Below the pieces are notes generated by a model. That model made no database searches and was not told the DNA's origin. It worked only from the letters and a program-made list of their open reading frames with translations. From assembly GCA_947476295.1 (NCBI GenBank), contig CANJQC010000026.1, positions 1 to 51,434 of the forward strand: a stretch of DNA of 51,434 bases. The letters are read 5' to 3'. Positions 13,588 to 38,463 of this stretch are shown piece after piece. Each line of letters starts with the position of its first letter. Position 1 is the first letter of the stretch. A program made the position numbers and the translations under genes. The stretch is from Planctomycetaceae bacterium (GTDB lineage Bacteria; Planctomycetota; Planctomycetia; Planctomycetales; Planctomycetaceae).

Positions 13588-13599
13588 TGTTTTCCCGAT

Positions 13600-13704
13600 C
13601 AGTGAGAGAATTGGCGAGCGGCATGCGTCAGCTTGGCGGTACAAAATCGAATGGACCGGAGGGCTCACGCCGCTCCGCTCGCCGGACTCGTTTCCGGGCG
13701 CGTG
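13600..13704 (+). repeat. Dispersed ~105-bp intergenic repeat, copy A
   Basis: This copy matches the reverse complement of 37328-37437 over about 100 bases, with scattered substitutions and one indel. Shared blocks include GGCGAGCGGCATGCGTCAGC and GGAGGGCTCACGCC. It carries a perfect 9-bp inverted repeat: GGCGAGCGG (13613-13621) and CCGCTCGCC (13675-13683). It lies immediately after yidD, and copy B overlaps the 3' end of the pseudouridine synthase gene. No coding potential is evident. Confidence 0.85.
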
Positions 13705-13805
13705 GTTCATAGACGATGGAGTTTGATAACCTCGTCAAACCGGTCTTTAGCTTCGATTGCAATGCGAAAATCTGAAGAGGTAAAACAGGTGACAACAAAT
13801 CGCAC

Positions 13806-18434: not shown

Positions 18435-19862
18435 ATGAGTTCCGATACTTTCTGTTCGATGGCTCGTCGGCGTTTTCTACAGACGGGTGGAGCGGGTTTT
18501 GTGGCGACTGCGACCGCAGCGGTGCTCGCGGAATCCATCGAAGAGTCTGCGGCAAAGTCAGGTCTCAAGTTTGCATCGACAGTTGCGCAATTTCCAGCAA
18601 CGGCAAAGAGCGTCATCTTTCTGTTTATGGAGGGTGGCCCAAGTCACATCGATCTATTTGATCCAAAACCATTGCTCAATGAATTATCCGGCCAGCGATT
18701 GCCTGATAGTTTCGGCAATGTGATTACCCCGATGGGTGAATCGCGTTCTCCGCTGTTAGCGTCACAGCGACGATGGCAGCAGCACGGTGCAGCCGGCACA
18801 TGGGTTTCCGACTGGTTACCGCACACAGCACAGTGTGTCGATGACATCGCCGTGATTCGGAGCTGTTGGGCGGATGGCATTAACCATTCGTCCGGTGTCT
18901 CCCAAATGAATACCTGTTCGATCCTTGGCGGACGTCCGTGCCTGGGAAGCTGGGTTTCGTACGGTCTGGGCTCTGAAAACCAGAATCTGCCATCCTTCAT
19001 CGTAATACAGGACAATAAATCGACTGTCGTGAACGGCCCTCGCAACTGGAGTGCAGGGTTTATGCCGGCGATGTATCAGGGCGTGCGACTGAACGAAGGC
19101 TCTGAACCGATTCCAAATCTCAATCCGCCCGAAGGTTCCGGGCTTCGGCGGCAACGAGGTAAACTGGGACTACTGGATCGACTCAATCGCGACTTTGCAA
19201 ATCAGCATCCCGAACAGTCAGAACTCGACGCCCGCATCGCGGCTTATGAACTGGCGTTTCGGATGCAGGCCCAGGCACCGGAGGCGGTCGCGATTGATGA
19301 AGAAACAGCCGAAACGCAGGCCATGTACGGCATGGATCAGAAGCAAACCGCTACGTTTGGACGGATGTGCCTGCTGTCTCGTCGACTGGTCGAACGCGGC
19401 GTTCGCTTCGTGCAGCTGTATCATGGTGCGGGCAGCAAATGGGACGCGCATTCAGGGATTGAAGCGAATCACGCGGGACTCTGTCAGGCCAGCGACCAGC
19501 CAATTGCCGGACTCCTGAAGGACTTAAAGCAGCGAGGCTTGCTTGAGCAAACACTGGTCGTTTGGGGCGGTGAATTCGGACGCACGCCGATGTCAGAAAA
19601 AGGTAATGGTCGCGATCACAATCCAACAGGCTTCACGATGTGGATGGCTGGTGGCGGCGTGAGTGGCGGTCAAACGATTGGCACGACCGACGAACTCGGT
19701 TTGCGAGCTCTTGAAGATCGCCTGCATGTGCATGACCTGCATGCATCGATTCTGCATCTTCTGGGACTTGACAACCGACAACTGACATGGTTCTTTAAAG
19801 GCCGTCCCGAGCGTCCGACCGTGAATGAAGGTGACTTTTTCGAGCGACTGGTGACTGGGTGA
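18435..19862 (+). CDS. Tat-exported DUF1501 protein
   Basis: This 475-residue protein begins with a twin-arginine signal (MARRRFLQTGGAGFVATATAAVLA). The body matches DUF1501, a family with an alkaline-phosphatase/sulfatase-like fold: FLFMEGGPSHIDLFDPKP, RSCWADGINHSSG, LGSWVSYGLGSEN, WGGEFGRTPMSE and GRDHNPTGFTMWMAGGGV. It is probably periplasmic. In planctomycetes DUF1501 proteins are typically paired with DUF1549/DUF1553 cytochrome-like proteins; here the partner is instead a SUMF1-like protein 54 bases upstream. The catalytic activity and substrate of the family are not established. Confidence 0.9.
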   Translation: MSSDTFCSMARRRFLQTGGAGFVATATAAVLAESIEESAAKSGLKFASTVAQFPATAKSVIFLFMEGGPSHIDLFDPKPLLNELSGQRLPDSFGNVITPMGESRSPLLASQRRWQQHGAAGTWVSDWLPHTAQCVDDIAVIRSCWADGINHSSGVSQMNTCSILGGRPCLGSWVSYGLGSENQNLPSFIVIQDNKSTVVNGPRNWSAGFMPAMYQGVRLNEGSEPIPNLNPPEGSGLRRQRGKLGLLDRLNRDFANQHPEQSELDARIAAYELAFRMQAQAPEAVAIDEETAETQAMYGMDQKQTATFGRMCLLSRRLVERGVRFVQLYHGAGSKWDAHSGIEANHAGLCQASDQPIAGLLKDLKQRGLLEQTLVVWGGEFGRTPMSEKGNGRDHNPTGFTMWMAGGGVSGGQTIGTTDELGLRALEDRLHVHDLHASILHLLGLDNRQLTWFFKGRPERPTVNEGDFFERLVTG

Positions 19863-20631: not shown

Positions 20632-22251
20632 ATGGCAAAGATGATTGCCTTTGATCAGGAAGCTCAGGAAGCCATGCGTCGTGGAGTCACGAAGCTGGCC
20701 CGAGCTGTGAAAGTGACTCTGGGGCCACGCGGTCGCAATGTTATCATTGAAAAGAGTTTTGGTTCACCGACCGTCACAAAGGACGGCGTGACTGTCGCTC
20801 GTGAAATCGAATTGCCAAACAAGTTCGAAGACATGGGCGCTCGTATGGTTCGGGAAGTGGCCAGCAAGACCAGCGACGTTGCTGGCGATGGCACCACGAC
20901 CGCCACTGTCATGGCTGAAGCGATTTATAACGAAGGCTTGAAAGCCGTCGTTGCCGGCGTCAGCCCGCTTGACATGAAGCGAGGTATGGACAAGGCCGTG
21001 ACCGACATCATCGCACAGCTTCACAGTATGGCTCAGGATTGCCGATCAAAGAAATCGATCGCTCAGGTGGGCACCGTGGCCGCTAACGGCGACGCAGAAA
21101 TTGGACAGATCCTCGCTGACGCTATGGAGCAGGTCGGCAAAGATGGTGTTATTACCGTCGAAGAGGGCAAGAGCCTTGTGACCAGTTTTGAAGTTGTCGA
21201 GGGTCTGCAGTTCGACCGTGGTTACCTGTCTCCATACTTTGTGACCGATTCAGAAAGTATGGAATGCGTTCTTGAAGACGCTTATGTGCTCATCCACGAA
21301 AAGAAGATCTCCAGCATCAAAGACTTGGTGCCTGTGCTGGAGAAGGTCGTGAATTCCGGCAAGCCGCTGGTGATCATCGCGGAAGATCTCGAAGGTGAAG
21401 CACTCGCTACGCTGGTGATCAACAAGCTGCGTGGCACCTTCAAGATTGCGGCGGTGAAAGCTCCTGGCTACGGTGATCGCCGAAAAGCCATGTTGCAGGA
21501 CATTGCTATCATGGTCGGTGGCACTGCGATCTTCGACGATTTGGGCATCAAGCTGGACAGTATCGAACTGGCTGACCTCGGAACGGCTCGCAAGATCGTC
21601 ATCGACAAGGACAACACGACGATTGTCGAAGGTGGCGGCAAGAAGGCTGACATTCAGGCACGCATCGAACAGATTCGACGCGAACTGGCGAACAGTACCA
21701 GTGATTACGACAGCGAAAAGCTGGAAGAGCGAATCGCGAAGCTAGCTGGCGGTGTGGCTCAGATTAACGTCGGTGCTGCTACTGAAAGCGAAATGAAGGA
21801 AAAGAAGGCTCGCGTTGAAGACGCACTTCATGCAACTCGTGCAGCTGTCGAAGAAGGCATTTTGCCTGGCGGTGGCGTAGCGATGTTGCGGGCCTCCCGA
21901 TCCGTGAAGCCTGGCAAACTGACTCACGATGAAAAGGTCGGCTACGACATTATCGTCCGAGCCTGCCGTGCTCCGCTGACTCAGATTGCCGACAACGCTG
22001 GCGTTGACGGCGGCGTTGTTTGCGAGAAGGTTTCAATGGGGGAAGGTAACTACGGCTACAACGCCGCCACCGACAAGTACGAGGACATGGTTAAGGCCGG
22101 TGTAATCGACCCAACCAAGGTCACTCGTTATGCTCTGCAGAACGCTGCCAGCGTTTCAACTTTGTTGCTCACCAGCGACGCTCTGATTGCGGAGAAGCCG
22201 AAGGACGACAAAAAGGGTCACGCTGGACATGGCGATGAAGACCTGTACTAA
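20632..22251 (+). CDS. Chaperonin GroEL
   Basis: This 539-residue chaperonin has [11 protein letters not shown], the ATP-binding [26 protein letters not shown] and the equatorial GGGVAMLRA, all typical of group I chaperonins. The start is ATG 20632 with GGAG 9 bases upstream. The usual GGM-rich tail is missing: the C-terminus reads [16 protein letters not shown], a charged, His-containing tail. That tail normally lines the folding chamber, so substrate handling may differ. Many bacteria carry several groEL copies; this one sits with groES and so is a candidate main copy, although the odd tail could also mark a paralogue. Confidence 0.95.
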
Positions 22252-23740: not shown

Positions 23741-25324
23741 ATGGCAAGCGACGAACCAGCAGGCAACTCAATTCCATCTTCCGGCGATCTCAGCAATGTG
23801 CGGATCGGGGAATTCCTGCTGCTGCGGCGTCTGGGCAGCGGCGGCATGGCGGATGTTTATCTGGCAGAACAAACGTCGCTCCATCGCAATGTCGCGATCA
23901 AAGTGCTGAAGAATGACGTGATCACTGGTGACAGCCGAGTTTTGCTGAAGCGATTCGAACAGGAAGCTCGTACGGCGGGCGGTTTAAATCATTCCAATCT
24001 CGTGCAGATCATCACCACAGGTCGTGAAGGCAACATCAGCTACATCGTGCAGGAATACGTTGCGGGGCTGAATCTTAGTCAATGGATTAAGAAGCATGGC
24101 ACGCCCGACTACGGCACCGGATTGAAGTGGATGCAGCAGATCGCTGCCGCGTTACACGCAGCGTCAGATGCAGGCATCGTGCACCGCGATGTGAAGCCTG
24201 AAAATGTGATGGTGACTCGTGGTGGCGTCGCAAAGGTCACGGACTTCGGATTGGCTCAGTTGAATCAGCCTTCCAGTCCGAAAATGAATCTGACGCAGAT
24301 CGGGACTACGATGGGTACGCCATGGTATATGAGTCCCGAACAGATTCAGGGTGAGAAGCTGGATCATCGCAGTGATCAGTATTCTTTTGGTGTCACATGC
24401 TACCACATGTTCGCTGGACAGCCGCCGTTTCCCGGCAAGAACGCTGTGACAGTCGCCGTTCAGCATCTGAAAGAAGAACCGTTGCCGCTGAGTACGTTTC
24501 GCGGCGACCTGCCGAAAGATCTGTGCGCTGTCATTCATCGCATGCTTCAAAAAAAAACTGCCGATCGTTTTCAGGATCCTGCGGACCTTGAGGCTGAACT
24601 CAAGCGTCTGGATTCTGTCCCGATCAATACCAAACCAGGGGCCACCAACAGTTTGTATGGACAATGGATGCCCAGGCTGCCGGATGCAAAGAAATTTTCA
24701 CTGGGCTTTGCTGGTGTGCTGATCGCCTCATTCGTGGCCGGGCGGCGAATGGAGCAGCCCGTGCGAATTCCGGAACCAGAACCAGCGCAGATTGAAAAGC
24801 AGACATCGGCGGAAGCACAGTTTGCCATGGCGATGCTGGCCCCGATGCGTGCCATGGCATGGCGTGCCGTTATTTCAAACTACAATGACAGTCCACTGGC
24901 CGATCTTGCCAGGCTCCGACTGGGCGTCGCTCTGATGTCCGGTGCGGTGCCGAATACAGAACAGGCACTCAAAGAATTTCGTGAGGCCGCAAACGCCAGT
25001 GGGCTGGGGCCGGAAAAGACACACCTCAAACTACTCGGACTGGTCGGACAACTCTGGGTCCTGCAACAACGTCCACGAAACGATGACACCGATCGCATTG
25101 TGAGTGAAATCCAGTCCGCTGTGGACGAATATGAAGACGCCGATGCACTGGAGAGTGCCCTGAACAAGGGCCCGGAGGAATTGAAACAGTTCTTCGAGCG
25201 ATCGCAACATGGATTTACTTCGACGTCAGGCTTCACGTTTGGAATGTCTGGCTCAGGAACACAGGAACCGAGTGGATCTCGCCCGGAACCTCGATCGAAT
25301 GGGGTGCGATCTGTTCAGTCCTGA
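23741..25324 (+). CDS. PknB-type Ser/Thr protein kinase with C-terminal TM and helical domain
   Basis: This protein of about 527 residues starts at ATG 23741; an upstream start at 23621 would add 40 residues lacking the kinase fold. The kinase domain has the glycine loop GSGGMADVY (32-40), Lys54 (AIKVLK), HRDVKPENVM with Asp150, DFGLAQ with Asp168, and GTPWYMSPEQ in the activation segment, so it should be active. A hydrophobic segment (FSLGFAGVLIASFVAG, about 320-335) follows, then a tail of about 190 residues rich in helices (QFAMAMLAPMRAMAWRAVISNY..) that resembles TPR-type repeats. The likely orientation is kinase inside, helical tail outside. It lies 203 bases downstream of the sigma/anti-sigma pair and may act on that pathway; that link is inference. 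Confidence 0.9.
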   Translation: MASDEPAGNSIPSSGDLSNVRIGEFLLLRRLGSGGMADVYLAEQTSLHRNVAIKVLKNDVITGDSRVLLKRFEQEARTAGGLNHSNLVQIITTGREGNISYIVQEYVAGLNLSQWIKKHGTPDYGTGLKWMQQIAAALHAASDAGIVHRDVKPENVMVTRGGVAKVTDFGLAQLNQPSSPKMNLTQIGTTMGTPWYMSPEQIQGEKLDHRSDQYSFGVTCYHMFAGQPPFPGKNAVTVAVQHLKEEPLPLSTFRGDLPKDLCAVIHRMLQKKTADRFQDPADLEAELKRLDSVPINTKPGATNSLYGQWMPRLPDAKKFSLGFAGVLIASFVAGRRMEQPVRIPEPEPAQIEKQTSAEAQFAMAMLAPMRAMAWRAVISNYNDSPLADLARLRLGVALMSGAVPNTEQALKEFREAANASGLGPEKTHLKLLGLVGQLWVLQQRPRNDDTDRIVSEIQSAVDEYEDADALESALNKGPEELKQFFERSQHGFTSTSGFTFGMSGSGTQEPSGSRPEPRSNGVRSVQS

Positions 25325-25454
25325 GTTTTAGCGGCGTTTTGGTTGCGAGCACGAAGCGTTTGTCGTGGAGTTGAAGGAATGGCCGCACTTTAAGAGTTGA
25401 ACATGGCGTTGCGGGCGTCTGACCAGAGACCGCTCAGGGCGATGACGGGGAGAC

Positions 25455-25619
25455 TTAGAATGGATGCGCCGGATTCGCAAAGAGCACACCCGCAGTGCCA
25501 AGTCCGATGCCGCGAAATTTCACGCTCCCCAACACCATGCCCAATACGCAGACGAAGGCGAGAAGGCCGATTGCTTGCGGAACGGGTTGTGTCCGGTGGA
25601 GTTCAAAGAGCCAGCTCAT
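25455..25619 (-). pseudogene. N-terminal stub of a YidE/YbjL/AspT-type transporter
   Basis: A 54-codon frame starts at ATG 25619, just 3 bases past the pckA stop, and ends at TAA (25455-25457). It reads MSWLFELHRTQPVPQAIGLL, then FVCVLGMVLGSVKFRGIGLG and TAGVLFA. This is the typical start of the AspT/YidE/YbjL family (TQPVAQ, LG..KFRGIGLG.AGVLFA). The family normally has about 500-560 residues with 10 or more TM segments, so all but the first TM segments are gone; the frame ends with the unrelated NPAHPF. The close spacing to pckA suggests an old operon in which the transporter (some members move C4 dicarboxylates) was lost by deletion. Confidence 0.7.
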
Positions 25620-25622
25620 TCA

Positions 25623-27206
25623 TCAGACTTTCGGTGCTGCGGCCTTCACTTCAGCACTCGCACCAGCAGCATATGTCTCGAAGTTTCTGTTGAACAGACC
25701 GGCCAGCTTCTTCGCCGTGGCCTCGTAATCCGACTTGTCAGCCCATGCGTTGCGAGGAACGAGAATCTCCGCGGGCACGTTTGGACATTCGGTAACGACT
25801 TCAAAGCCAAAGACAGGATCTCGCTCGGTGTTTGCGTTCGCCAGCGAGCCGTCGTGGATCGCATCGATGATGGCACGTGTATTTTTGAGGCTGATGCGTT
25901 TGCCGACCCCGTAGCCGCCACCGCCCCAACCTGTGTTCACGAGCCAGACGCGGGCGTTGTGCGTCAGCATTTTCTCAGCAAGCAGTTCGGCGTATTTGGT
26001 CGGATGCCAGACGAGAAACGGCCCGCCGAAGCACGGGGAAAACGTGGCCTGCGGCTCGGTGATGCCCATCTCTGTTCCAGCGACTTTCGCGGTGTACCCA
26101 CTGATGAAGTGATACATCGCGTGCGACGGCGAGAGGGAACTGACTGGCGGCAGAATGCCGAACGCATCACACGTGAGAAAAATCACATCGCTTGGATGGC
26201 TGGCGACACATGGGATCTTTGCATTCTGGATAAACTCGATCGGATACGCTCCTCGCGTATTCTGCGTGATGCTCGTGTCCGTGTAATCGACGTCATGATC
26301 CTCATCGAGCACAACGTTTTCCAGTACGGCGCCGAAACGCAGCGCCCGGAAAATGTCCGGCTCGTTCTCGGGTGTAAGGTTGATCGCCTTGGCGTAGCAA
26401 CCACCCTCAATATTGAAGATCCCGTCGCCGCTCCAGCAGTGCTCGTCGTCGCCGATGAGATGACGTTTCGGGTCAGCTGAAAGCGTTGTCTTGCCCGTTC
26501 CGCTGAGACCGAAGAGAAGCGACGACACACCAGTCTCTTTGTCTGCAGTCGCGGAGCAATGCATCGAGAGAATGCCACGCTTCGGCCCGAAGTAGTTGGC
26601 CACCGTGAAAACGCCTTTTTTCATCTCGCCGGCGTATTCGGTGCCCAGGATGACCATTTCTTTGTCCTCAAAGCTGAGGTCGATGCTGGTGGTTGAACCC
26701 ATGCCGGTGGTGAGCCGATTCGCGGGAAATGCCCCTGCATTGAAAATCACAAAATCGGGCGTCCCGAAATTCTTCAGGTCCTCCTTTGTCGGGCGGATCA
26801 ACATCGTGTGCATGAAGAGCGCATGATACGGACGAGAGCAAATGACGCGGACCTTAATCCGATAGCGAGGATCCCAGCCCGCGAAGCCATCAAAGCAGTA
26901 GAGCCGCTCGCGCGTGTTCAGATAGTCCAGCGCGCGCTGACGATTGATGGCAAATGTTTTGTCGTCGCAGGGGATGTTCACTGGTCCCCACCATATATCA
27001 TTTTCCGACGCTGGATGCCTGACGACACGTTTGTCCTTCGGCGACCGGCCGGTTTTTTCCCCTGAGTAGGCGACCAACGCACCGTTTTCTGCAATGGTCG
27101 CATTCTTCTCGTAACGGATGGAGTGTTCGTAAAGCGCACTTGGCGGAAGGTTGTAATGAACCTCGGAAACACTGATGCCGTGTTGAGTCAGATCGATTTT
27201 ATGCAT
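25623..27206 (-). CDS. ATP-dependent phosphoenolpyruvate carboxykinase
   Basis: This 527-residue enzyme interconverts oxaloacetate and PEP plus CO2 using ATP/ADP. The family motifs are intact: YSGEKTGRSPKDKRVV near residue 48, the PEPCK signature LIGDDEHCWSGDGIFNIEGG, the P-loop LFGLSGTGKTTLSADPKR, the kinase-2-type VLDEDHDVDYTD, and NTGWGGGGYGVGKRI. The start is ATG 27206 with AAGG about 11 bases upstream. Its flanks are both damaged: a transporter stub directly after its stop and a broken PPK2 gene 26 bases before its start. This intact gene within remnants suggests an acquired or shrinking operon in which only pckA was kept. Confidence 0.95.
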   Translation of the reverse strand: MHKIDLTQHGISVSEVHYNLPPSALYEHSIRYEKNATIAENGALVAYSGEKTGRSPKDKRVVRHPASENDIWWGPVNIPCDDKTFAINRQRALDYLNTRERLYCFDGFAGWDPRYRIKVRVICSRPYHALFMHTMLIRPTKEDLKNFGTPDFVIFNAGAFPANRLTTGMGSTTSIDLSFEDKEMVILGTEYAGEMKKGVFTVANYFGPKRGILSMHCSATADKETGVSSLLFGLSGTGKTTLSADPKRHLIGDDEHCWSGDGIFNIEGGCYAKAINLTPENEPDIFRALRFGAVLENVVLDEDHDVDYTDTSITQNTRGAYPIEFIQNAKIPCVASHPSDVIFLTCDAFGILPPVSSLSPSHAMYHFISGYTAKVAGTEMGITEPQATFSPCFGGPFLVWHPTKYAELLAEKMLTHNARVWLVNTGWGGGGYGVGKRISLKNTRAIIDAIHDGSLANANTERDPVFGFEVVTECPNVPAEILVPRNAWADKSDYEATAKKLAGLFNRNFETYAAGASAEVKAAAPKV

Positions 27207-27232
27207 GATTGGGGACCTTGTAAATTCGTTGT

Positions 27233-27690
27233 CTAATAAAACATAGAGGGTGCAGTCAGGCTCAGCAAATGAGCGATGCAGTTCAGGCGAGCCCGCCGCT
27301 TGTCATCCGACCGCAGGAAGGCCCATGGTGCATGTTCCGTATCCGTGGCCAACACATTTGATCCCGAGCGTTCGAGTACTGATCCCACTTACTTCGCGAG
27401 GGAAGGTCCATCGGGCTGAGCTTCAATTGCCGCAGAGGGGCATCTATCCGAGCTTCAAAACGGCGTCCGTGTTTTTCATCACCCACTTCGAGCCAGATCT
27501 TGATGAACTGAATGCCTGCGTCGGTGATGTACTTTTCCAATTGTGGACAGACAGTCAGGAAAGTCTCGTGCTGCTCGGGCGTGCAGAACCCCATCACATG
27601 TTCCACGCCGGCCCGGTTGTACCAACTGCGGTCAAAGATGACAACTTCGCAGGCAGCAGCAAAGTGCGCCATATAGTACTTGACGCATCA
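27233..27690 (-). pseudogene. Polyphosphate kinase 2 (PPK2) pseudogene
   Basis: The conserved middle and end of PPK2 are visible: EVVIFDRSWYNRAGVEHVMG, then FCTPEQHETFLTVCPQLEKY, WLEVGDE, LSPMDLPSRSKWDQYS and ARDQM. The frame then shifts within 27351-27357. In the shifted frame the family's ending continues: LATDTEHAPWAFLRSDDKRR, then ARLNCIAHLLSL, to a stop at 27233-27235. The N-terminal half with the Walker A motif is missing, and an in-frame stop lies upstream of the conserved part. PPK2 makes or uses polyphosphate with nucleotides; this copy cannot be functional. It sits 26 bases before pckA on the same strand. Confidence 0.9.
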
Positions 27691-27887
27691 ATCATCGCGA
27701 ACATGACCATCCATAAAAACAATTTTCCGGCATTCAGTTGTTTTCTCGTGTTGTCGCAGCAGCCAGCCGATCGTGTCTCACGACGGCCGCTTCGGCCGGA
27801 TGGATTTCAGACGGGAGCGATTTCCACCGTGATCCGTCATTGTTCATCGCGGAATGACTGGGGCAGCGACAGGAAGGGGAACTTTGC

Positions 27888-28292
27888 ATGAGCAGACCTG
27901 GTGAAACCGATACGGCCGAAATGGTGGCAGCGCCAATCGTCGGCGGCGATCAGTCGCCGCCGCGGTCTTCCGTGGCTGCGGTGGACATGGCTGGTCTGAC
28001 AGATCTCGCTCTCGCAACGCCCGATTGGATTCTCCGTCTGGACGATGAACTGTTCATGCAGGAGGTCATGCGCAGGGCGAAGGAACGGTGGGGGAAGATT
28101 AACACGGCGCTGACCGACCATGCTCAGGCCGACCCGAGCGTGAAAGGACTGGGCACGACCCTGACCGTCGCCTGGAGCTTGGGAAAAAACATGGTGGTGG
28201 CTCACATTGGGGATTCCCGCGCCTACCGCAGCGGGTTAAACTTATTTGCGGGTGGCCGCGCAAAGTCTATTATTCCGCTGTACCAGCAATGA
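27888..28292 (+). pseudogene. Internally deleted PP2C-type protein phosphatase
   Basis: A 134-codon frame opens at ATG 27888 with AAGGGG upstream. It reads like a PP2C N-terminus (SRPGETDTAEM...VDMAGLTD). It then jumps straight to the middle of the domain: LALATPDWILRLDDELFMQE, KGLGTTLTVAWSLGKNM and VVAHIGDSRAYR. The segment that should carry the DGMGG metal-binding motif, roughly 90-100 residues, is missing, and the protein stops soon after GDSRAYR. A full PP2C domain is about 240 residues. Two ends joined across the missing metal site indicate an internal deletion, and the C-terminal half is lost too. It diverges from the PPK2 remnant. Confidence 0.8.
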
Positions 28293-28412
28293 AGCGGGCT
28301 TCTGTGGCGTTTGTTAGTGTGTGAATCATCGAAAGAAGATGAATTGATCAATGAAACTCCAGCGCGAACAGCCACTTTTTCCGTCGATAAACGATTGAAA
28401 CAATCAGCCGCC

Positions 28413-29543
28413 ATGGCGCGGGCGGTCTATATTCATGTGCCGTTTTGTCTTCATCATTGCGGATACTGTGATTTTGCTTTGGTTGCGAATCGGGATCATT
28501 TGATTCCGCAGTACCTGCAGGCGCTAAACAATGAATTGCAGGCGCATCGCCGGATCGTGGGTGATGTCGTTGAAGTGGATACGATTTTTGTCGGTGGTGG
28601 TACGCCAACGCACTTGTCGCCCGAAACATTGCGGAGCCTGTTCACGCTGATTCATCAGCATTTTCGTCCCACGATGAATGCTGAGATTTCTGTCGAAGCG
28701 AATCCGGATGGACTCTGCACTGAACGCCTAGACGTGCTCCGCGAGCATGGCGTGAATCGGTTGAGTCTCGGCGTTCAGTCCTTCGACGATGCTGTGCTTA
28801 GGACACTGGAACGCACTCACACTGGTGCTCAGGCCGTTGAAACGGTGCGACGCTGTGAGCAATGGATTCCCAACGTCAGTCTCGATCTGATTTTCGGCGT
28901 TCCCGAGCAAACGGCTGCATCATGGCGGCGGACACTTGAAGTCGCGTTAACATTGCCGGTCAGGCACATTTCCACGTATGGCCTGACCTTTGAAAAAGAC
29001 ACACCGTTTTTTCGTCGCGAACAGCATGGACAGTTGAAGCGGACACCCGACAAACTTGAGCGGCAGATGTATCTTGAAGCAATCTCGAAACTCACAGACG
29101 CTGGGCTGCGGCATTATGAAGTGTCGAATTTTGCTCATCCGAATTCTGAATGCCGCCACAACATGGTCTACTGGAACGCTGATGAATACTTTGCGTTCGG
29201 CCCCGGTGCTGCCAGCTATCTTGGCGGAGTGCGGCGTACAAACGTCCGCAGCGTTGTGCGCTGGCTGAAGGCATGGCAGCAGAGTGAGACGGCAGTAGAA
29301 GAATCCGAAGAACTGTCGAACGAAGAAAAAGCCCGCGAAGCCATCATGCTGGCGCTACGCATGCGTCAGGGCGTAAATGTACCTGCATTTGAACGACGCT
29401 TCGGCCTGCGTTTCGCTGAACTGGCCGGTGCAGCACTTCAGCAACACGTCGATGACGGGTTTCTGATGCAACAATCCGATTTCGTTTCGCTGACAACCGA
29501 AGGATTACTGATCGCGGATACGATTATTGTCGATTTTCTGTAG
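28413..29543 (+). CDS. HemW-type radical SAM protein (haem chaperone / coproporphyrinogen-oxidase-like)
   Basis: This protein of about 376 residues starts at ATG 28413 (MARAVYIHVPFC). An upstream start at 28311 would add 34 unconserved residues. The radical SAM cluster motif is CLHHCGYC (Cys12, Cys16, Cys19), followed by VGGGTPTHLSPE, SVEANPD, GVNRLSLGVQSFDD and the C-terminal HemN-like region (AREAIMLALRMRQGVNV). HemW proteins carry the 4Fe-4S cluster and bind haem; true HemN oxidases have an additional N-terminal cysteine that is absent here. It is monocistronic in this window. The annotation as oxygen-independent coproporphyrinogen oxidase is often applied to this family but is probably wrong. 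Confidence 0.9.
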   Translation: MARAVYIHVPFCLHHCGYCDFALVANRDHLIPQYLQALNNELQAHRRIVGDVVEVDTIFVGGGTPTHLSPETLRSLFTLIHQHFRPTMNAEISVEANPDGLCTERLDVLREHGVNRLSLGVQSFDDAVLRTLERTHTGAQAVETVRRCEQWIPNVSLDLIFGVPEQTAASWRRTLEVALTLPVRHISTYGLTFEKDTPFFRREQHGQLKRTPDKLERQMYLEAISKLTDAGLRHYEVSNFAHPNSECRHNMVYWNADEYFAFGPGAASYLGGVRRTNVRSVVRWLKAWQQSETAVEESEELSNEEKAREAIMLALRMRQGVNVPAFERRFGLRFAELAGAALQQHVDDGFLMQQSDFVSLTTEGLLIADTIIVDFL

Positions 29544-31223: not shown

Positions 31224-33002
31224 GTGCATAGAACTCATACCTGCGGAGAACTTCGTCGTGAACACGCTGGCCAGACGGTCACATTGTGCGGCTGGGTCAA
31301 TAGTTATCGTGAACAGGGCAAGGAACTGGTCTTCGTCGATATGCGCGACCGATACGGCAAAACGCAGGTCGTATTCTACACCGATGACGATACAAAGATC
31401 GACGGCGTGGCCCGAAAGCTGCGTCGCGAAGACGTGGTCAAGGTTGTCGGCGAAGTGTGTTATCGAGGCGACGGTTTGGTGAATTCCAAACTCGCCACTG
31501 GCGATATCGAGATCCGCGCACAGCAACTCACAGTGCTGTCAAAAAGCAAAACGCCGCCGTTTGAAATCGAAGGTACTGAACTTCCAAACGAAGAGCTCCG
31601 TTTGAAGTATCGCTTCGTCGATTTACGACGTCCTGAGCTGCAGAAGAGCATTATTCTGCGTCACAACCTGGTGCAGGCGGTGCGTGAATACTTCAACACT
31701 CGCGATTTTCTGGAAATCGAAACACCGATGCTGGGGCGCAGCACTCCGGAAGGTGCCCGCGATTATCTTGTGCCCAGTCGCGTTCATCCCGGCAGTTTTT
31801 ATGCGCTGCCCCAGTCACCGCAAATTTACAAGCAGATTCTAATGGTCGCCGGATTCGACCGCTATTATCAGATTGCACGCTGCTTCCGTGATGAAGATCT
31901 GCGGGCCGATCGGCAGCCTGAGTTCACTCAGATCGACGTCGAAATGGCTTTTGTGGAACGCGACGATATCCTGAACACCATCGACGGATTGATCGCGTTT
32001 GTGATGAAGAAAATTCGCAACGTTGATATTCAGGTTCCGTTGCCGCGCTACACATATCGTGACGTGATGGAACGATACGGCAGTGACAAACCCGATCTCC
32101 GCTTCGGCCTAGAAATTGTTGATATCGGCCCAGTGGCCGCCGTATGCGATTTTGGCGTCTTCAAAGGTGTGATGAGTTCCGGTGGCCGAGTTCGTGGAAT
32201 CAATGCCAAAGGAGCAGCTGAAAAGTACAGTCGACGACTTTTGGACGTGGATCTGAAGAACTTTGTCGGCGACTTCGGTGCCAAAGGCCTGGCGTACATG
32301 AAAGTCGTCGGTGACAAACTGGAATCCACAATTGTTAAGTTCTTCACTGAAGAGCAACAGCGTGAGATCCTGACTCGCATGGATGGCAAGGACGGCGATT
32401 TGCTGCTGTTTGTCGCAGATACTCCGAAAGTCACAAACGCTGCGTTGGCGGCATTGCGGAGTCGGCTTGGGAAGGAACTCAACCTTTACGATCCTTCACA
32501 GTTCCAGTGCCAATGGGTACTCGACTTTCCACTCGTGACATGGAACGCCGCCGAAGATCGATTCGACGCAGAACATCATCCGTTCTGTCAGCCCAATCCG
32601 GAAGATGCTGAGTTCATGAGGACGGATCCCAGTAAGGTTCGCGCCGATAGTTATGACCTTGTCGTCAACGGCTACGAAGCCGCCAGTGGAAGCGTGCGTA
32701 TTCATGATTCCGAAATGCAGCAGGTGGTATTTGATCTTCTGAAGATCAATCCAGAAGAGGCGGAAATGCGTTTCGGTTTCCTGTTGGAAGCCCTTCGTTA
32801 CGGTGCGCCGCCCCATGCCGGGATCGCACTCGGACTGGATCGCTGGGTCATGCTGCTGGCTGGCGACGACAACATCCGTGATGTCATCGCTTTTCCGAAG
32901 ACTCAGAAGGCTGCCGACATGCTCACCGGTGCCCCAGCACCCGTGGACGCTCGTCAGTTGAAAGATCTGAGTATCGAAGTCGCAAAACTGCCTGAAAAGT
33001 GA
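31224..33002 (+). CDS. Aspartyl-tRNA synthetase
   Basis: This 592-residue class II synthetase starts with GTG at 31224 ([16 protein letters not shown]). Order: OB-fold anticodon-binding domain (about 1-105, [20 protein letters not shown]), the class II core with motif 1 and motif 2 ([18 protein letters not shown]), the GAD insertion domain typical of the bacterial form (about 290-430), and motif 3 ([15 protein letters not shown]). Length and the GAD domain mark it as bacterial type. It attaches Asp to tRNA-Asp, and possibly to tRNA-Asn if the organism uses the indirect route. It is transcribed divergently from prfB. Confidence 0.95.
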
Positions 33003-37327: not shown

Positions 37328-37437
37328 AACTGCGTGGCCAGAAATGAGTCCGGCGAGCAGAGTGGCGTGAGCCCTCCGTTACCTCGTTTTTGTACCGACA
37401 AGCTGACGCATGCCGCTCGCCAGTTCTCTCACCCATG
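37328..37437 (-). repeat. Dispersed ~105-bp intergenic repeat, copy B
   Basis: Its reverse complement matches copy A (13600-13704) over about 100 bases. The arms are GGCGAGCGG and CTGCTCGCC, one mismatch from a perfect 9-bp inverted repeat. It starts about 50 bases after the DUF1559 stop and overlaps the last codons of the pseudouridine synthase gene (stop at 37429), so its insertion may have altered that C-terminus. Confidence 0.85.
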
Positions 37438-38463
37438 ACCGCGTGGAGTATCAACGGTCATAAGCGTCGCCTTGGTGATCCCCGCAACCTCCCAGAAATC
37501 TCTCGGCGGCTGGGTGCGAAACTGCATCCATTCTCGCAGAATCGGATGAAAGAAGCCCAGGGATGCAGCGTGCAGCGCATGCCGGTCTTCCGTTGGCTCA
37601 TCGCCGTCAAAGCGTGGCGATTTACGAATCGTTCCGCGAGGGCCGTAATATTCGTCACCGGCGATCGGGTAGCCCAGATCCGATAAATGTACGCGGATCT
37701 GGTGATTGCGTCCGGTGAACAACACGCATTCCATAAGTGAATGACTCGCGAATCGATCGATGACAGTGACTTTTGTTTTTGCTGGTCGCGCATTCCTTGC
37801 GTCGGCGCGAGCAGACATCAAAACGGTATTAGTTCCCGGACGCTGCCCGATCGGCAGTTCAATGAGTCGTTGCTCGAAATCAGGCGAGCCGTCCACTAGT
37901 GCGACATACGATTTTGAAAGTTTCCCCTGCTGAAAATCGATCGAAAGCAGGCGATGGGCCAGATGATCTTTTGCGGTCACGATGAGGCCACTTGTCATAC
38001 GATCCAGTCGATGCACAACTCCCGGTCGCAGCATGCCTTTGAGGGCCGTTTGCAGATCGAGATAGTACTGCAGGGCATTCGACAACGTTCCATTCTGAAA
38101 ATCGCCGACCGGATGCGCGACCAGGCCTGCTGGCTTGTCGATGACAATCAGCCATGGATCTTCGTAGACAATCGTCAGGGGCAGGTCGATCGGTTCAAGC
38201 AGCTTATCGGGCGGTTCGATGAGCTTGAGCGACACATGTTGGTTGCGAAACACGCGCTGATCCGTAGCTGCCGGAATATCATCAACGCATGCCATGCCCG
38301 CGGTCACCATCCGATGCAGTCGCCATGTCGTATAATTTCGAAGCTGCTTCGCGAGGAACGAATCAATCCGCACGCCCGAAAGATATGGCTCAACAACGAA
38401 TTCAACGCTCGCCGGGAATTCTGGGTTTCGAGAGCAATTCTTGGTGTCGGATGATCTGGCCAA
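37429..38463 (-). CDS. RluA-family 23S rRNA pseudouridine synthase (RluD-like)
   Basis: This 344-residue protein has an N-terminal S4 RNA-binding domain (LSGVRIDSFLAKQLRNYTTWRLH, about 29-85) and a RluA catalytic domain with HRLDRMTSGL, where Asp154 is the catalytic aspartate. Further signatures are YEDPWLIVIDKPAGLVAHP and FTGRNHQIRVHLSDLGYPIAGDEYYG. It converts uridines to pseudouridine in rRNA, probably in the RluD/RluA group, but the exact positions cannot be read from sequence. The start is a TTG at 38463 without a clear ribosome site, so the first 15-20 residues are uncertain. The last few codons overlap the dispersed repeat. Confidence 0.88.
   Translation of the reverse strand: MARSSDTKNCSRNPEFPASVEFVVEPYLSGVRIDSFLAKQLRNYTTWRLHRMVTAGMACVDDIPAATDQRVFRNQHVSLKLIEPPDKLLEPIDLPLTIVYEDPWLIVIDKPAGLVAHPVGDFQNGTLSNALQYYLDLQTALKGMLRPGVVHRLDRMTSGLIVTAKDHLAHRLLSIDFQQGKLSKSYVALVDGSPDFEQRLIELPIGQRPGTNTVLMSARADARNARPAKTKVTVIDRFASHSLMECVLFTGRNHQIRVHLSDLGYPIAGDEYYGPRGTIRKSPRFDGDEPTEDRHALHAASLGFFHPILREWMQFRTQPPRDFWEVAGITKATLMTVDTPRGHG

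Follow-up and report, generated by a model that had tools for sequence, protein, structure and literature searches.

An intact pckA gene of foreign origin among decayed neighbours in a Planctomycetaceae bacterium: probable xenologous displacement with loss of the operon partner

The window analysed here, a stretch of 51,434 nucleotides, is the whole of contig C26 in the assembly of a Planctomycetaceae bacterium (5.99 Mb in 252 contigs, 98.97% complete). From left to right, the locus consists of a Ser/Thr protein kinase gene (Pfam Pkinase; 23741..25324, plus strand), the last codons of which lie on a truncated insertion-sequence (IS) end bearing a 20-bp terminal inverted repeat (25302..25477); a stub of a YidE/AspT-type (AAEx) transporter gene (25476..25619, minus strand); an intact pckA gene for ATP-dependent PEP carboxykinase (ATP-PEPCK; 25623..27206, minus strand); a PPK2 pseudogene (27233..27681, minus strand); about 200 bp of unassigned sequence (27682..27887); a PP2C pseudogene (27888..28226, plus strand); a dispersed repeat of about 90 bp (28211..28300); and a native hemW-like radical SAM gene (28311..29543, plus strand), with homology from about 28387-28416. 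A blastn search of 27686-27895 against the collected loci returned only self copies and one 23-base match (E 0.034), and the window as a whole gave no Rfam match at gathering thresholds. An initial annotation of this DNA had described a complete pckA among three broken genes, and that description proved accurate, with a full-length PEPCK profile and motifs for the enzyme and a ruin at each of the three other positions; it had passed over the 176-bp IS end beside the stub and the repeat of about 90 bp at the PP2C remnant.

The pckA product comprises 527 aa, matches PF01293 at profile positions 2-465 of 465 (1.6e-216) and scores above the NCBIfam TIGR00224 cut-off. All six motifs looked for, which hold catalytic residues of ATP-PEPCK (P-loop, substrate and metal sites), are present: TGRSPKDK, GEMKKGVF, SMHCSA, GLSGTGKTT, IGDDEH and NTRGAYP. 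When compared with the solved ATP-PEPCK structures (PDB 1j3b, 1ii2 and 1aq2/1ayl), the alignment is nearly full-length with the motifs kept, and residues 15-526 of the 527 align with 1j3b. The values of dN (0.085-0.106 in five comparisons) and dS (1.39-1.99 in three, saturated in two), including a dN of 0.085 and a dS of 1.39 against locus L172, fit a gene under constraint. Codon usage and GC, which had been proposed as a test of transfer, did not discriminate: the codon-usage distance of pckA is 0.084 within a range of 0.050-0.135 for 25 window ORFs, and its GC3 of 0.670 is the highest among those compared; neither value was informative, and both were dropped as evidence of transfer. An unremarkable codon usage implies either a transfer that was not recent or a similar donor. 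Among the 25 long ORFs, groEL (20632-22251; distance 0.135) deviates most in codon usage, as expected for a highly expressed gene.

A pckA match was found in 30 of the 40 genomes searched, the window's own included, and in 15 of the 17 genomes of the same genus, where identity to the window copy is 66-73% and three matches are fragments. Relative to genome G001, hemW is 84% and the kinase 83% identical, in contrast to 67% for pckA. In a tree of 126 PEPCK proteins, the window sequence falls in a clade of 26 rows (SH-aLRT 99) drawn from four phyla, namely Verrucomicrobiota, Acidobacteriota, some Planctomycetota and one Sumerlaeota row, and a clade of 15 rows with support 100 contains the 12 full-length same-genus rows together with the second copy of G222 and two Fuerstiella rows. 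Forcing the window and genus pckA together (56 rows) cost 231 log-likelihood units and was rejected (p-AU 1.1e-5). Judged from its protein sequence, the window pckA is foreign and lies outside the clade of its own genus. The tree was built by a quick method and the branching within the 26-row clade is only partly resolved, so no donor is named; the closest pckA products are 83-86% identical to that of the window (L172 and L173, 86%; L171 and L177, 84%; L174, 83%). Before the tree was built, 12 input loci were dropped as shorter than 470 residues or identical to a kept row, including three fragments from the same genus, L026 (G013), L032 (G008) and L033 (G010); the G013 fragment, with 333 residues matched at 73%, therefore stands outside the tree, and L034 (G033, 29%) stood outside the tree input. 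In the class, 143 genomes had a pckA match and loci were taken only for the best of these. The locus comparison covers the best 80 of 324 pckA loci, which is no random sample, with 23 in the window's clade and 57 others.

The same tree could arise from ancient paralogy, with an ancestor that had both pckA types and a window species that kept the other one. This reading draws on G222, a member of the same family with two pckA (84% and 69% identical to that of the window), one in each clade, and on the 7 of 297 class genomes with two matches at E <= 1e-200 (G222, G130, G165, G173, G238, G242 and G253). Because G222 has both copies, the two kinds of pckA can evidently coexist, and this genome possibly represents an intermediate state. 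We nevertheless regard paralogy as unlikely, since a second pckA occurs in 0 of the 15 matching same-genus genomes (17 searched) and the four-phylum clade would require many losses.

The genome itself gave a single pckA match and no second copy, and the native ATP-PEPCK ortholog is absent, with a small doubt that comes from an assembly 98.97% complete in 252 contigs. Genes that flank pckA on one side in G012 and G001 are collinear on contig C24 at 80-86% DNA identity, and this synteny stops at 32846 against G001 and at 32815 against G012, before the next gene and pckA. The gene that lies in G001 and G012 between the end of this synteny and pckA was not found in the genome, a neighbouring gene being found by the same method, and C24 runs on for almost 19 kb past the break. 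The break at the native site, which took this intervening gene too, may be a larger deletion or a rearrangement. As a separate observation, the window has two copies, in opposite orientation, of an intergenic repeat (13597-13705 and 37333-37451); a G012 stretch (L102:6409-6530) situated between the native pckA and a gene that by eye resembles leuD shares about 90% identity with it.

Directly beyond pckA, the stub ORF (25455-25619, minus strand) starts 3 bp past the pckA stop, as had been stated, and of its 54 codons 48 match transporters; the remainder, down to 25455, runs across IS sequence. Identity over the 48 codons is 87.5% to the transporter of L172, and the stub is 64.6% identical to the intact copy in G130. 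The stub covers 29 residues of one Asp-Al_Ex domain (19.5 bits, below the 27-bit cut-off), and the intact G130 transporter has two Asp-Al_Ex stretches. Two complete transporters that were tested score above the cut-off of the NCBIfam model PRK03818 'putative transporter', the YidE model, and below those of the aspartate-alanine antiporter models. The intact relatives of the stub carry Asp-Al_Ex and YidE/YbjL duplication domains; they thus share domains with the AAEx family (AspT, SucE1; TC 2.A.81), although the antiporter cut-offs are failed, and no substrate is assigned. According to PMC9527358, the AAEx family includes the succinate exporter SucE1 as well as AspT.

A search of relatives for an intact order of transporter, pckA and PPK2 had been suggested, and the pckA-transporter part of it was found. 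A complete 556-aa transporter begins 3 bp after the pckA stop at L172 (JAATET010000071.1, a Chthoniobacterales MAG), the two reading frames overlap by 4 bp at L175 (JALHJL010000056.1, Phycisphaerales), they are 32 bp apart at L195 (JAKEET010000191.1, Gemmataceae), and the G130 pair is likewise adjacent on one strand. The window shares order and strand with the pairs of L172, L175 and L195, and its gap equals the 3 bp of L172; in those three loci the transporter is complete, whereas the window keeps only 48 codons. The stub is, on this comparison, taken to be the remains of the operon partner of pckA. Among the best 80 of 324 loci, a transporter match anywhere on the locus is seen in 7 of the 23 clade loci (L172, L175 and L195; L173, where it follows pckA by 1.1 kb; L177, where the distance is about 4.3 kb; and L181 and L184, where it points in the direction opposite to pckA) and in 5 of the 57 loci outside the clade, where those of L205, L217 and L236 are partial; the Fisher value of 0.032 disregards kinship and the unequal length of the loci, on which a match at any place counts, and is descriptive only. 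Our literature search, which reached its sources in part, found no report that pairs pckA with a transporter of the YidE type. Some of the pckA-transporter loci also carry phosphofructokinase, lactate/malate dehydrogenase, SulP or PPK2 genes, and from these companions we infer a C4/PEP module that would consist of PEPCK and a YidE-type exchanger, with these further genes added at some loci. Two loci are of interest for their surroundings, several gene names at both having been read by eye from translations: at L182:4747-13272 a pckA of the clade stands amid sugar metabolism genes with PPK2, a predicted glycoside hydrolase and SulP, and at L195:6117-19413 pckA is accompanied by transketolase-like, lactate/malate dehydrogenase, transporter, phosphoketolase-like and PPK2 genes.

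On the other side of pckA, the PPK2 gene is without its Walker A half and frameshifted, again as had been described. Its homology (27260-27681) covers positions 79-188 of the 229-position profile in one frame and 188-219 in another, with the frameshift at about 27349-27355 and the N-terminal half gone; in the second frame the ORF extends to 27233, which leaves 26 bases to the start of pckA. Set against the intact L182 protein, the window sequence has neither a complete domain nor Walker A. The best match is at L195 (61%), followed by G027 of the class (56%), G312 of the same family (55%) and L182 (54%), and a match in G313, also of the same family, reaches 59% over 39 residues only. PPK2 matches within the genus (E <= 1e-10, 4 of 17 genomes) are 44-47% identical and the intact paralog of the own genome 45%, and the pseudogene is likelier to come from outside the genus; it may have arrived separately from pckA. 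PPK2-like matches anywhere on the locus occur in 4 of the 23 clade loci (L172, L182, L185 and L195), two of them only 29-31% identical, and in 1 of the 57 others (L192), again among the best 80 of 324; the Fisher value here is 0.022, subject to the same limits as that for the transporter and likewise descriptive only. At L182 the PPK2 gene lies upstream of pckA on the same strand with one gene between, and at L192, outside the clade, a PPK2-like gene lies directly upstream of pckA on the same strand.

Compared with the 275-aa gene of G001, the PP2C gene lacks 69 codons (207 bp, in frame, at about 28003) between GLTD and LALATP, including LLVADGMGG; DGMGG is the PP2C metal site, and the junction across its deletion had been noted before. 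The DNA homology stops after DSRAY, so that the C-terminal part is missing as well, and the end of the remnant runs into the dispersed repeat. The G001 gene, complete or nearly so and situated near a contig start, is 88% identical in DNA over 224 bp, and the three bases ATC stand at both edges of the gap in G001. One more partial PP2C match in G001 is 63% identical over 35 residues, and none above 39% was found in the other 16 same-genus genomes. The PP2C pseudogene is evidently of native type, and its membership in a transferred block, as first proposed, is rejected on the match to G001. The repeat at 28211-28300 has seven further whole or part copies in the own genome (79-85% identical, E < 1e-5), and its predicted fold is not clearly better than that of shuffled sequences (z -1.36).

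The IS end offers a view of how the left side of the locus was formed. The 176 bp at 25302-25477 recur in the own genome in copies of 97%, 97% and 93% identity and in a partial copy (82 bp, 100%), and none of the 39 other genomes searched has a match; terminal inverted repeats and several copies per genome identify the element as an IS. Copies on contigs C8, C143 and C182 lie near contig ends, and when a transposase gene was sought, the IS stretches read held no complete copy, the fuller ones running to contig ends. The partial copy, on contig C69, is a deletion derivative of 134 bp, with inverted ends of 20 bp and the first 82 bp of the IS at 100%; it looks like a form of the window's IS that has lost its interior, and it directly precedes mtnA. 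This MITE-like element (L166:6146-6279 of G000) folds far better than shuffled sequences (z -6.95). The kinase gene is followed directly by mtnA in G001, G012 and G013, with kinase orthologs of 83%, 78% and 77% aa identity, respectively, but not in the window, where DNA similarity to G001 stops at 25293. Since the C69 element adjoins the gene that follows the kinase in these relatives, the probable site of IS insertion was between the kinase gene and mtnA; these two genes were separated afterwards, through recombination of IS copies with one another or through an assembly swap within the 82 identical bases. The IS flanks, tcgaatg on the kinase side and tcgaaatg on the mtnA side, differ by one base and are only suggestive of a target-site duplication. 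In the window the IS stops 176 bp inside the element, where transporter codon 48 adjoins it; a deletion has removed the remainder of both. Whether the part of C69 before mtnA once stood beside the block was also considered: its orthologous region in G012, G015 and G004 has no match to the window at 25-30 kb, G015 and G004 show a 122-bp match (70%) to 19494-19615, and the comparison was uninformative. On contig C69, the cysteine-rich protein gene at C69:3896-5497 has an 85% ortholog in G012 (C50:10508-12109, L294) with three in-frame stops, and its matches in G015 and G004 have none.

Assembly collapse had been offered as another explanation, under which the contig would be misjoined at the IS or at repeats and the broken genes would be false. 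The 82 bases identical to the C69 copy before mtnA, the direct succession of kinase and mtnA in the three relatives and the position of the IS copies near contig ends would accommodate such an error, but a swap would alter only the neighbour of the kinase. The junction of stub and IS lies 176 bp inside the element and is spanned by no other match in the own genome, the window IS differs by at least 3% from the three fuller copies, copies of the downstream repeat are only 79-85% alike, and the PPK2 frameshift and the PP2C in-frame deletion of 69 codons would be left in place. We hold an artefact to be unlikely; collapse is not supported for the ruins, which consist of a frameshift, an in-frame deletion and a diverged IS copy, and a misjoin may lie between the kinase and the block. 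That the fragments still function, the stub as a small peptide in the membrane, the PPK2 remnant as a shortened enzyme and the PP2C remnant as a PP2C-like regulator, is very improbable, because although their ORFs of 54, 129 and 134 codons are still open, catalytic and metal sites are gone, PPK2 is frameshifted and the end of the stub is encoded by IS sequence.

About half of the initial reading, a transferred C4/PEP-polyphosphate block in the course of pruning, is thereby retained: acquisition is borne out by the tree and the AU test and pruning by the intact pairs, while the polyphosphate link is weak and PP2C falls away. In its place we consider it probable that pckA was displaced by a xenolog, that the enzyme was kept by selection and that the remainder decayed through IS-associated rearrangement. 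A pckA-transporter operon, from a lineage circulating in Verrucomicrobiota, Acidobacteriota and Planctomycetota, would have entered the genome. The genus's own pckA would then have been lost, leaving the newcomer, the only ATP-PEPCK found, to be held by selection; loss of the native gene would make the newcomer indispensable and the transporter and PPK2 expendable, and the YidE/AspT-type exchanger and the adjacent PPK2 gene would have decayed as dispensable. A lineage-specific IS would have inserted between the kinase gene and mtnA, a rearrangement via IS copies would have set the block next to the kinase, and the stub would be the product of a deletion that begins 176 bp into the IS and reaches transporter codon 48. 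An alternative order, in which the native pckA was lost last, fits equally. Xenologous (orthologous) gene displacement is a known concept in bacteria, and the event is of this known kind, with operon decay: as in other cases, a foreign ortholog is present and the native gene is missing from its usual site, but unlike in the usual displacement, the window pckA still has remnants of its transferred operon next to it.

The physiological role of the enzyme may have changed with the loss of its partner. The intact module probably makes and exports C4 acids from PEP, and the window PEPCK alone would serve gluconeogenesis or anaplerosis. We put forward, as a tentative idea, that a C4/PEP module circulates in PVC bacteria and Acidobacteriota, and that here, after the native gene had been lost, its PEPCK was domesticated and is now the only one; the exchanger would have been given up, and a fermentative enzyme that yields ATP would have taken on a gluconeogenic or anaplerotic task. 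The locus shows the replacement of a central-metabolism gene with its scaffolding, namely the kept gene, the discarded partner and the mobile element at the break, and the repeated occurrence of pckA together with a transporter of the YidE type across several phyla provides a lead to the substrate of this transporter subfamily.
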